NCBI GenBank assembly: GCA_019454125.1
Contig: CP075365.1
Coordinates: 186,001 to 250,000 of the forward strand
Direction of reading: 5' to 3'
DNA: 64,000 nucleotides
Source: Fimbriimonadaceae bacterium
GTDB lineage: Bacteria > Armatimonadota > Fimbriimonadia > Fimbriimonadales > Fimbriimonadaceae
Part shown: positions 38,940-60,426 of the stretch, in pieces
Position numbering within the stretch: the first letter of the stretch is position 1
Layout of the letters: each line of letters opens with the position of its first letter
The notes under the pieces: generated by a model
What the model saw: the letters and a program-made list of their open reading frames with translations, nothing else
Databases searched by the model: none
What the model was told of the DNA's origin: nothing
Translations under genes and position numbers: made by a program

Positions 38940-39001
38940 ACGGTCCAGCGCCCGGCAACGGGAGTCCCCAGGTCGCAAACTTCCCAGTCTGGGGTTCACT
39001 G

Positions 39002-39236
39002 GGCCCTCCCCCTGACCCCCTCCCCAAGCCTGGGGAGGGGGTTTGCTTTCGCCACGTGCAACTCACTTGGCGCAACTCCACACCTGTGGAGCGGAAGCCC
39101 CTCCCCCTGACCCCCTCCCCAAGCTTGGGGAGGGGATTGCTTTCGCCACGGAACGTACAAGTCACTTGGCGCACCGCCACACCTGGAGCCGGGGGCCCCT
39201 CCCCCTGACCCCCTCCCCAAGCTTGGGGAGGGGGGA
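39002..39236. repeat. Three-unit tandem array of GC-rich palindromic repeat (family 1)
   Basis: Three hairpins of consensus CCCTCCCCCTGACCCCCTCC followed by CCAAGC(T/C)TGGGGAGGGG occur at about 39003-39041, 39098-39135 and 39196-39236. The linkers share TGCTTTCGCCACG, CACTTGGCGCA and CCACACCTG, giving a unit of about 95 nt. The array lies between wbpE and the transketolase gene, both transcribed leftward. Other copies of the hairpin are at 42311-42352 and 55037-55078. Confidence 0.85.
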
Positions 39237-42310: not shown

Positions 42311-42352
42311 CTCCCCCCTCCCCAGGCTTGGGGAGGGGGCAAGGGGGAGGGG
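42311..42352. repeat. Family 1 palindromic repeat, single copy
   Basis: On the minus strand this reads CCCCCTCCCCCTTGCCCCCT, CCCCAAGCCTGGGGAGGGGG, the same hairpin as in the 39.0-39.2 kb array in the other orientation. It lies between convergent genes and may end transcription from both. Confidence 0.75.
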
Positions 42353-53979: not shown

Positions 53980-55578
53980 ATGGCCGACCGAGAGTTCCTT
54001 CTCTATGACTCCCTCAGCCGACAGGTCAAGCCGCTGGAAACCCTCGAACAGGGGCACCTGAGGTTCTATACCTGCGGGCCGACGGTCTACAGTTACGCCC
54101 ACATCGGCAACTTCCGCTCCTTTCTCGCGGCAGACCTTGTGGTGCGGACGGCACGGGCACTGGGTTGGCGCGTCACTTGGGTGAGCAACATCACCGACGT
54201 GGGGCACCTCACCCAAGACGACGTCGCGGACGCGGGCGGGGAAGACCGCATGGAGAAGGCGCTGCATTCAAAGGAAGGCGAGCAGTTCGCCAACGTCTGG
54301 CAGCTCGCGGAGTTCTACGCCGACAAGTACATCGAGGACTGGCGGCGGCTGAACCTCACCGAGCCGACCGTCCGGCCCAAAGCCACGCAACACGTGCGCG
54401 AACAGATCCTCATGACGGTCGGCCTGATCGAGAAGGGCAACGCGTACGAGACCCCCACCGGCGTCTACTTTGACGTGGAGAGCGACCCGAACTATGGCAA
54501 GCTCAGCGGCAACACGCGGGAGAAGCTGCAAGAGGCCGTGCGCGACGTGGTGCTGGACGGGAACAAGCGCCGTCAAGCCGATTTCGCGCTCTGGAAGAAG
54601 GACGACAAGCATCTGATGCAGTGGTATTCCCCCTGGGGATGGGGCTTCCCCGGCTGGCACATAGAATGCTCGGCGATGGCGCGGGCTTATCTGGGAGACA
54701 CGATCGACCTGCACAGCGGCGGTGAGGACAACGCCTTCCCCCACCACGAATGCGAGATCGCCCAGAGCGAAGCCTACTCCGGCAAGACGTTCAGCAACCA
54801 CTGGATGCACGTGCGGTTCTTGCAGGTCGAGGGCGAGAAAATGGCCAAGAGGGGGGGCAACTTTTACACCGTGCGCGACCTGGTCGAGGAAGGCTACGAC
54901 CCGCTCGCCTTGCGGCTGGCCCTGATCAGCGTGCCCTATGGCAAGCCGATGAACTTCACCTTGCAGTCGCTGCGCGACGCCCAAGGGCACATCGAGCGCT
55001 TTCGCGAGTGCGAACGCCGCGTGGAAGCGTCCGGAGCCCCTCGCCCCTCCGCGGGAGAGGGGCCAGGGGGTGAGGGGGCGCCGGGCGCACGGCCCGGATC
55101 TCCCCCCCCAACCCCCCCCTCAGTTTCGCCGGGCACGAACCATCCCGGCAAAGCCGAGGGGGGGGCTCTCGGAGCCGACCTGGCGCGGCTCTACAACGAG
55201 GCCCTCGACGCCATGGCCAACGACCTCAACACCTCCGTCGCCATCGCCAAGGCCTTGGAAGGCACCCGCGTCATCTTGAGGGAGGCCTCGCTGACCTCGG
55301 AGCAAGGACAGGCGGCAAGGACTTTCCTGGACCAGGTGAACGCCCTGCTCGGCATTGTGCGCACCGACTATCCCAACGGCTGCCCGGAAGCCGCCGCCCA
55401 ATCCACGCCGGAGATCGACGGCCGCCCAATCGACGACTGGGTGGCCGAGCGAGACGTCGCGAAGAAGGCCAAGGACTTTGCCCGCGCCGATGCGATCCGC
55501 AACCGGCTGAATGAGGAAGGCATCGAACTCCGCGACAGCCCAGAAGGCACGACCTGGGCAAAGAGAATCGGTGCCTGA
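53980..55578 (+). CDS. cysS: Cysteine-tRNA ligase with repeat-derived insertion
   Basis: Class I aminoacyl-tRNA synthetase of 532 residues charging tRNA-Cys. The HIGH-type motif lies in YTCGPTVYSYAHIGNFRSF, the KMSKS equivalent is KMAKRGG, and the zinc ligands are in CGPTVY, WHIECSAM and HHECEIAQ. Residues about 352-398 are a Pro/Gly/Glu-rich insert absent from the family at this point (loop before the DALR helix DLARLYNEALDAMANDLNT); it is encoded by GC palindromic repeats and explains the length above the usual 460-490. ATG 53980 (ADREFLLYDS) is the family-like start. Expected to be functional because the insert is in a loop and in frame. Confidence 0.95.
   Translation: MADREFLLYDSLSRQVKPLETLEQGHLRFYTCGPTVYSYAHIGNFRSFLAADLVVRTARALGWRVTWVSNITDVGHLTQDDVADAGGEDRMEKALHSKEGEQFANVWQLAEFYADKYIEDWRRLNLTEPTVRPKATQHVREQILMTVGLIEKGNAYETPTGVYFDVESDPNYGKLSGNTREKLQEAVRDVVLDGNKRRQADFALWKKDDKHLMQWYSPWGWGFPGWHIECSAMARAYLGDTIDLHSGGEDNAFPHHECEIAQSEAYSGKTFSNHWMHVRFLQVEGEKMAKRGGNFYTVRDLVEEGYDPLALRLALISVPYGKPMNFTLQSLRDAQGHIERFRECERRVEASGAPRPSAGEGPGGEGAPGARPGSPPPTPPSVSPGTNHPGKAEGGALGADLARLYNEALDAMANDLNTSVAIAKALEGTRVILREASLTSEQGQAARTFLDQVNALLGIVRTDYPNGCPEAAAQSTPEIDGRPIDDWVAERDVAKKAKDFARADAIRNRLNEEGIELRDSPEGTTWAKRIGA
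55033..55173. repeat. Two palindromic repeats inserted in frame in cysS
   Basis: A family 1 hairpin (55037-55078, CCCCTC with GCGGGAGAGGGG, related to the 39.0 kb array) and a family 2 element (about 55100-55168, minus orientation, loop GATGGTTCGTGC) stand side by side. Their combined 141 nt are a multiple of three and contain no stop in the cysS frame, so they are translated as a 47-residue linker. Confidence 0.8.
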
Positions 55579-58427: not shown

Positions 58428-59762
58428 ATGGCTGAGACCCTCGCCCCCGCCGCCGCCCTGCACCAGAGCCTGGTGCAAAAAATCCAGGACAAGACCGCGA
58501 TCGTCGGCGTCGTCGGGTTGGGCTATGTCGGCTTGCCGTTCGCGGTCGAGAAGGCGAAAGTCGGGTTCCGCGTCGTCGGAATCGAGCAGAACCCCGCCCG
58601 CGCGGACAAGGTGAACCGCGGCGAGAACTACATCGGCGACGTGCACGACCACGAGCTGACCGAGTGCGTCGAAAAGGGGCTCATCACCGCGACGACCGAC
58701 TTCAGCGGCGTCGCCGAGATGGACGTGGTGGTCGTCTGCGTCCCGACTCCGCTCAACAAGAACTTGGCACCGGACCTGCAGTACGTCGAGAGCGTCACGC
58801 GCGAGATCGCCAAGCACCTGCGCCCGGGCCAGCTCGTCAGCCTGGAGTCCACCACCTACCCCGGCACCTGCGAGGAGGTCATGCTCCCGATCCTCGAGCA
58901 AAGCGGGTTGAAGGTCGAGGAAGACTTCTACCTCGCCCACTCGCCCGAGCGCGTCGACCCCGGCAACAAGCGCTACACCACAAAGAACACGCACAAGGTG
59001 GTCGGTGGAGTCGGCCCGCGCTCGCTGGAGGTCGCGATGGCGTTCTACGGCATGACGATCCTCAACGTGATCCCGGTCAGCAGCGCGAAGGCGGCCGAGC
59101 TGACCAAGGTCTTCGAGAACACGTTCCGCGCCGTGAACATCGCGCTCGTGAACGAACTCACCCTCCTTTGCGACCGCATGGAGCTGAACGTCTGGGAGGT
59201 GTTGGACGCGGCCTTCACGAAGCCGTTCGGCATCATGCCGTTCTATCCCGGCCCCGGCGTCGGCGGACACTGCATCCCGCTCGACCCGCACTACCTGGAA
59301 TGGAAGGCGAAGGAGCACAACTTCGCCACCCGCTTCATCGCACTCGCGGGCGAGATCAACCGCGCCATGCCCCGCTTCGTGCGGCACAAAGCGTGGAGGT
59401 GCCTGAACGAGATGGGCATCGCCCCCTCGCGATCCTCGATCCTCGTCATCGGCGCGGCCTATAAAAAGGACATCGACGACTGGCGCGAGTCGCCCGCCAT
59501 CGAGGTGATGGCGCTGCTCGTCGAAGACGGCGCCAAGGTGAGCTACCACGATCCCCACGTGCCCGCCTTCCGCGACCACGGCCTTGACCTCGTCTCGGTT
59601 CCGCTGACTCCGGAAAGCCTTGCGGCTGCGGATCTCGTGATGATCCTAACCGACCACACCGCCGTCGACTACGACTTCGTCGTGAACCACGCCCGCCACG
59701 TCCTTGACACCCGCCATGCGACTCGTGGCCGTTCCGGTTCGGCTGTCGTGACGTTGCTGTAA
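58428..59762 (+). CDS. wbpA: UDP-N-acetylglucosamine 6-dehydrogenase, WbpA-like
   Basis: NAD-dependent nucleotide-sugar dehydrogenase of 444 residues making the C6 carboxylate, the first step to UDP-GlcNAc3NAcA. Rossmann start VGLGYVGLPFAVEKAKVGF, then VCVPTPLNKNLAPDL, STTYPGT and the catalytic Cys in PGPGVGGHCIPLDPHYL; GAAYKKDIDDWRESP follows. The WbpA/WbpO group is favoured over UDP-Glc dehydrogenase because of GGHCIPLDP and the pathway genes present, but specificity needs assay. TACACT is 15 nt before the ATG, giving a short leader. It is 12 kb from the nearest other pathway gene. Confidence 0.88.
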   Translation: MAETLAPAAALHQSLVQKIQDKTAIVGVVGLGYVGLPFAVEKAKVGFRVVGIEQNPARADKVNRGENYIGDVHDHELTECVEKGLITATTDFSGVAEMDVVVVCVPTPLNKNLAPDLQYVESVTREIAKHLRPGQLVSLESTTYPGTCEEVMLPILEQSGLKVEEDFYLAHSPERVDPGNKRYTTKNTHKVVGGVGPRSLEVAMAFYGMTILNVIPVSSAKAAELTKVFENTFRAVNIALVNELTLLCDRMELNVWEVLDAAFTKPFGIMPFYPGPGVGGHCIPLDPHYLEWKAKEHNFATRFIALAGEINRAMPRFVRHKAWRCLNEMGIAPSRSSILVIGAAYKKDIDDWRESPAIEVMALLVEDGAKVSYHDPHVPAFRDHGLDLVSVPLTPESLAAADLVMILTDHTAVDYDFVVNHARHVLDTRHATRGRSGSAVVTLL

Positions 59763-59768
59763 GTTCCG

Positions 59769-59838
59769 GAGCCCCCTCCTCGTTTCTCGCCCGATGGTTC
59801 GTGCGGGTGGGAAATGAGGAGGGGGTTGGGGGTGGAGA
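59769..59838. repeat. Family 2 palindromic repeat (loop GATGGTTCGTGC)
   Basis: A long imperfect hairpin GAGCCCCCTCCTCG ... GATGGTTCGTGC ... TGAGGAGGGGGTTGGGGG between the convergent wbpA-like gene and a hypothetical gene. The same element, in the other orientation and with compensatory stem changes, is inside cysS at 55100-55168. It may end transcription here. Confidence 0.8.
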
Positions 59839-60426
59839 CTAGGGCGTTATGGTCAGCGAAGTTTCGGCTTCAAGCCTTCCCTTGAACGATCGGTCGAACA
59901 TCTTCTTCGCCGTGGGCGTGAACTCGTAAGTGTCGTTCGGGCCGCCCATCCCGGTCGTCAGGGGTCGGTCGAACTGGTACCACCCTTTCACCGTGTAAGT
60001 CCCCGGCGGCAGCGGTTCCTGTATGACAACCCACTCTTCGAAGTCTTTCTTCAAGGAAGGTCTCGGCTTTCCACCCCCGACCATCATGCTAAAGGTTCCT
60101 TGCCAAAAATTGGCTTGGTACCCCTTATAGAGGTCTTGAAAGCGGTGGCTCGTCACCTGGTTGTCGACCATCACCTGATACATGCTGGGAGAGTCTCCCC
60201 CGCCAACTTCGATGGGCGTCCCGCCACGGAAAACGCGAAAGCCGGCCCCCGCCCCCATCCCGCCATCGTGCCTCGTGGTGCAGACGCTCACCAGCGAGTC
60301 CGTCTCGTTCCGAACCACAAGGTTAACCTCCACCATCTGGCCAGGGTGCGCGACTGCAGGAGTTAGAACGACCTCCAGAGTCAAGCTTGGAGCGGCCATC
60401 GCGATTGCGGCTAGTAGGGAGACCAT
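59839..60426 (-). CDS. Secreted hypothetical protein
   Basis: A 195-residue exported protein with a short signal peptide (VSLLAAIAMAAPS). The mature part begins with an Ig-like strand pattern (TLEVVLTPAVAHPGQMVEVN, LVVRNETDSLVSVC) and has PLPPGTYTVKGWYQFDRPLT, a pattern seen in intracellular proteinase inhibitor (BsuPI) type and similar beta-sandwich domains. ATG 60426 has AGAGA 6 nt upstream; a longer frame to 60522 is less likely. Function unknown. Confidence 0.6.
   Translation of the reverse strand: MVSLLAAIAMAAPSLTLEVVLTPAVAHPGQMVEVNLVVRNETDSLVSVCTTRHDGGMGAGAGFRVFRGGTPIEVGGGDSPSMYQVMVDNQVTSHRFQDLYKGYQANFWQGTFSMMVGGGKPRPSLKKDFEEWVVIQEPLPPGTYTVKGWYQFDRPLTTGMGGPNDTYEFTPTAKKMFDRSFKGRLEAETSLTITP

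Follow-up and report, generated by a model that had tools for sequence, protein, structure and literature searches.

The cysteinyl-tRNA synthetase gene (cysS) of a Fimbriimonadaceae bacterium contains two adjacent, short palindromic elements that belong to two distinct repeat families, A and B. Members of these families lie in frame within about 20 distinct host genes, in five genomes from four genera, and the case is therefore stronger than stated in an earlier note on this DNA, which took cysS as the lone intragenic example. Judged from the sequences, it is very probable that A and B constitute a non-autonomous REP/MITE-like family that is spreading in the Fimbriimonadaceae and is tolerated in proteins in the form of linkers. 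The core idea of that note, of copied or mobile palindromes tolerated in an essential enzyme, is upheld by the range of host genes; that the copying is active we infer.

The DNA analysed (the window) is a stretch of 64,000 nucleotides, comprising bases 186001–250000 of a one-contig genome of 2,652,248 bases (2.65 Mb), here called G000. The sister species is denoted G001, and G008 represents a second genus. A second intact cysS, considered earlier as a possible functional gene, is absent from G000 (copy number 1). The closest records of the gene are from Fimbriimonadaceae of the Armatimonadota, and the near ones are metagenome-assembled. The gene and its insert comprise the following features:

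53980..55578, plus strand: cysS, cysteinyl-tRNA synthetase, the host gene (open reading frame and translation, 532 amino acids; Pfam tRNA-synt_1e, E = 4.1e-90)
55030..55035, no strand: TCCGGA end motif to the left of A (sequence; other copies have it at their ends too)
55030..55080, plus strand: family A palindromic element, read as SGAPRPSAGEGPGGEGA (covariance model R2, 57.6 bits, E = 3.4e-10 in the window)
55081..55093, plus strand: spacer between A and B, contributing to a small hairpin together with the first bases of B (sequence and RNA fold)
55094..55175, plus strand: family B palindromic element, read as GSPPPTPPSVSPGTNHPGKAEGGALG (covariance model R1, 88.2 bits, E = 1.7e-19 in the window)

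The cysS reading frame stays open across 55033–55173 in the translated ORF. The covariance models confirm the two side-by-side hairpins from two families that had been noted there, and place the limits of the insert slightly wider, at about 55030–55175. Its ends are TCCGGA-like, with CCCGGA before B (in the 55091–55096 region) and CTCGGA after it. The composite of A and B has 31 genomic matches at E ≤ 0.01. The RNA of 55030–55177 is predicted to fold with a free energy of -100.6 kcal/mol (z = -3.55), and none of 200 shuffled sequences was equally stable. The corresponding linker in the protein is 47 residues long in G000 compared with 5–18 (median 12) in 70 relatives, and 24 residues in both G001 and G008. 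In the AlphaFold model of CysRS (mean pLDDT 83, pTM 0.81) residues 359–390 have pLDDT <50, located between helices 328–350 and 395–413, and the blocks 331–350 and 401–460 average 96–98. The insert is thus modelled as a disordered loop, within the helical region behind the catalytic domain. Placement by a structural model covers CysRS alone among the host proteins.

A covariance model search of G000 gave 24 strong copies of B, which is about 80 nt in length (A is about 52 nt). The repeats had been thought to occur elsewhere only between genes. This is incorrect, as 11 of the 24 B copies lie in frame within six conserved core genes and at least three A copies are in frame in conserved genes. For B the hosts are leuS (five copies), ispG (two, arranged head to head), and metG, ahcY, uvrA and cysS with one each; genic status was assigned from a codon-usage test of the flanking sequence together with ORF inspection, and the hosts were confirmed by Pfam. 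Family A is found in cysS, era, an HI0933-type gene and one hypothetical ORF. The leuS, metG, era, ahcY and ispG genes each have one close match in G000. The window contains a second strong copy of B, outside genes:

59762..59843, minus strand: family B element (covariance model R1, 87.0 bits), beginning right after a TAA that we take to be the stop codon of a gene

Elsewhere in G000 three B copies are arranged in series with a spacing of 153 bp and common flanking sequence (1166882–1167265, L208). The HI0933-type gene (L218, 1899729–1901174) has a tandem insert AESSLRTPAESSLRTPAESSVHTPG besides its A copy. Further inserts that resemble decayed repeats are present in UvrA (AAAPPPVAGEGAGGGGAS, L202) and ArgRS (SPSPSLGRGSGGGD, L276).

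The genic copies of B are read predominantly in one frame for each orientation. Forward copies read SPPPTPPSVSxGTNHPxKTEGGA (12 of 13) and reverse copies APPSVLxDDRAPETEGGVGGGD (11 of 11), with metG as the exception. The combined probability of this preference is about 5e-8, or 1.5e-6 when each gene and orientation is counted once, from a tally made by hand over accepted hosts in which the leuS copies are not fully independent; the reverse component is based on the observed share of open frames (20/45). Two copies, in purB of G084 and at C8:149968 of G016, were left out because the ORF is interrupted or unverified. Every forward frame is open in 22–23 of the 24 B copies, so that the forward preference is not due to stop codons. 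The forward frame in use is the most hydrophilic, with the highest content of P, G, S, T, E, N, K, D and Q (75%) and the lowest of hydrophobic residues plus Cys and Trp (8%), and the reverse frame in use is the one most often open. Moreover, 10 of 11 genic copies have a core whose length is divisible by three, compared with 5 of 13 other B copies (p = 0.013). That one frame is favoured though others are often open argues that the repeats are translated.

We read the bias in frame and length as selection acting on the translated peptide, which would speak against splicing or bypass. Removal of the insert before or during expression, by RNA splicing, ribosomal bypassing or protein splicing, such that it never appears in the protein, is very unlikely. 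Strong mRNA hairpins could in principle promote bypassing, but a sequence that is removed has no need of a preferred frame, of cores in multiples of three or of remnants that stay in frame; inteins, introns and bypass elements are free in their frame, whereas here both frame and core length are constrained. In addition, no intein or intron features were seen on reading the 148-nt stretch, and the insert had no match in Rfam above a family cut-off, the sub-threshold matches having the appearance of chance.

Within the Armatimonadota searched, family B is largely confined to the Fimbriimonadaceae, where 30 of 85 genomes have matches at E ≤ 1e-5. Among 291 Armatimonadota genomes 21 match B at E ≤ 1e-6, all but one of them being Fimbriimonadaceae. 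In G016, G044 and G084, from three further genera, most of the B copies examined are outside genes. Genic copies in these genomes are found in genes for a class II ribonucleotide reductase, GH38 and GH2 proteins, and in lysS, pheT and glnS, and the frame rule holds for them. The class II ribonucleotide reductase of G016 (L305) contains two B-like inserts in series, APSSFAGEGSCPENEEGVGGG and then AENEEGVGGG. The purB gene of G084 (L346) has an in-frame TGA immediately 5′ of its B copy and looks interrupted at that point.

Comparison of orthologues reveals presence, absence and decay. The intact inserts of metG and era, and both leuS inserts with a clean alignment, are missing from the orthologues in G001, G008, G015 and G016; at the sites in the editing domain of leuS the length varies and the alignment is poorer. 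No element is present in ahcY of G001, the one genome with which that gene was compared. In turn, G001 has B in nadA, dxs, argS (two sites), an S9 peptidase, a glycosyltransferase and an amidohydrolase. The nadA (PTPANGTNRPVVAEKGA) and argS (APPLSPAGHDP) sequences of G000 look, on our reading of the alignment, like decayed copies at places where G001 has intact ones. At ispG, uvrA and cysS the two species have B at the same sites, ispG having one copy in G001 compared with two in opposite orientation in G000.

Aligned across relatives, as had been proposed, cysS lacks the linker in most of them. The B element at this site is not private to G000: G001 retains a remnant there (E = 2e-4), which includes a run of 30 bases identical to the G000 copy, and there is a weak B-like remnant in G008 (E = 0.0055), again at the same site. 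No B remnant was found there in the other 14 loci searched. On the basis of these matches the B element of cysS appears to predate the split between G000 and G001. Possibly it also predates the split from G008, or else the site is a hot spot that was struck twice. An A element at the cysS site was found in G000 alone, and is missing from cysS of G001; A would thus have been added beside B later in the G000 lineage, or lost from the sister species.

It is scarcely credible that the repeats arose through faulty assembly or misplacement of repeat sequence. The genomes of near relatives were assembled from metagenomes, and assembly may join repeats wrongly, but every verified genic copy preserves the frame and the sister genome, which was separately assembled, has elements at the ispG, uvrA and cysS sites. 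Furthermore the G000 assembly is a single contig that is 97% complete with 0.06% contamination.

The mechanism that we propose is that the short GC-rich palindromes of A and B are copied within Fimbriimonadaceae genomes. In essential genes the survivors would be those insertions that are a multiple of three in length and are read in the most harmless of the stop-free frames. The translated element would form a disordered linker within a loop, composed mostly of Pro, Ser, Gly, Thr, Glu and Asn, probably with a near-neutral effect on the enzyme, and the linker would then decay in frame.

It is improbable that the elements have been recruited to serve the host gene, for example by affecting mRNA stability, by pausing translation or by supplying aminoacyl-tRNA synthetases with a useful linker. 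Seven of the 20 distinct host genes encode aminoacyl-tRNA synthetases, an excess that is improbable by chance on an assumed background of 2–3%, but the category was picked after the data had been seen and detection favours conserved genes, so a preference for synthetases is no more than possible. Covariation of the arms might also indicate function. In the B stem 7 of 17 pairs have two-sided changes that preserve the pairing (18 copies), as would be the case for conserved hairpins; recombination among the copies could, however, produce the same pattern. The insertions in ispG and uvrA that are common to both species also speak for recruitment. Elsewhere, however, presence differs between the sister species and copies decay, and since both orientations occur the peptide is not conserved.

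The closest parallel is provided by the Rickettsia palindromic elements (RPEs), palindromes of 100–150 bp that are inserted into ORFs in exposed regions of the protein leaving the frame undestroyed (PMC3767692, PMC10969869). Like the RPEs, especially RPE-1 to RPE-3, A and B comprise several families of hairpin-forming palindromes that occur in frame in unrelated genes and are also intergenic. The exposed positions of RPEs may have a counterpart in the disordered loop modelled for CysRS. A and B differ in belonging to Armatimonadota rather than Rickettsiales, in being shorter (about 80 and 52 nt), GC-rich and bounded by TCCGGA-like ends, and in occurring in both orientations with one frame for each. 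The resemblance to RPEs that was suggested earlier is one of behaviour rather than of established homology in sequence. The observation is real and larger than first noted, and A and B would be a separate family of coding palindromes, functional analogues that work like RPEs.

Stand-alone in-frame insertions in housekeeping genes are also described for the Wolbachia palindromic elements and the coding palindromes of Methanocaldococcus jannaschii (PMC2996958); as presented in that citing paper they resemble A and B in their choice of genes, in other organisms. MITEs, as small non-autonomous repeats that are able to sit in ORFs, are similar, with genic examples in Coxiella (PMC5896051) and among enterobacterial repeat units (PMC2759123). 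A frame rule in essential conserved genes of the kind described here was not encountered for MITEs in the titles, abstracts and review consulted. Open-literature titles and abstracts, with coverage of few subscription papers, contained no report of in-gene palindromes in Armatimonadota. In-frame palindromes in essential enzymes are known chiefly from Rickettsia and Wolbachia, and those described here are from environmental Armatimonadota. Their presence in this phylum, with five insertions in leuS and a frame rule that extends over four genera, suggests that such behaviour can arise under different conditions. The families offer a comparative system for selfish repeats becoming protein, in which the choice of frame, the choice of loop and the decay are measurable.

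Family B also resembles the REP elements mobilized by RAYT (Y1) enzymes, in that it is short, palindromic and repeated and its stem is preceded on the 5′ side by a conserved unpaired stretch. Across genera this stretch comprises TCTCC, a C-rich segment and AA (TCTCC..CCCCAA); neither a GTAG nor a CGTC tag of the REP type was seen in B. In contrast to REP elements B is genic in nearly half of its copies. CCGG, mostly within TCCGGA, is present at both ends of 11 of the 24 B copies in G000, and also in other genera. CCGG as a general simple target duplication was rejected, because the distance between the two CCGGs in some genic copies is not divisible by three. G000 has a Y1 gene:

G000 1376029–1376322 (L210 2284–2946): Y1/IS200-like transposase gene (Y1_Tnp; Pfam)

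It is 429 bp from an A copy, and adjoins a 232-amino-acid ORF that contains an in-frame A copy. Y1 genes are commoner in genomes with B (26 of 30 compared with 26 of 55, p = 0.0004), a statistical link that ignores phylogeny and genome size. The Y1 transposase is a candidate for the mobilising enzyme of A and B, as a lead only. A more extended proposal, which we regard as doubtful, is that these are unrelated, still-mobile coding palindromes convergent with RPEs, favouring aminoacyl-tRNA synthetase genes and moved by a Y1/RAYT-type enzyme at TCCGGA, so that their spread would keep adding linkers to essential proteins.

The window contains a third family of GC-rich palindromes (CCCCTCCCCAAGCTTGGGGAGGGG). 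Three copies at 38997–39233, at intervals of 95 and 98 bp, are followed after 3.1 kb by a fourth at 42314–42339.
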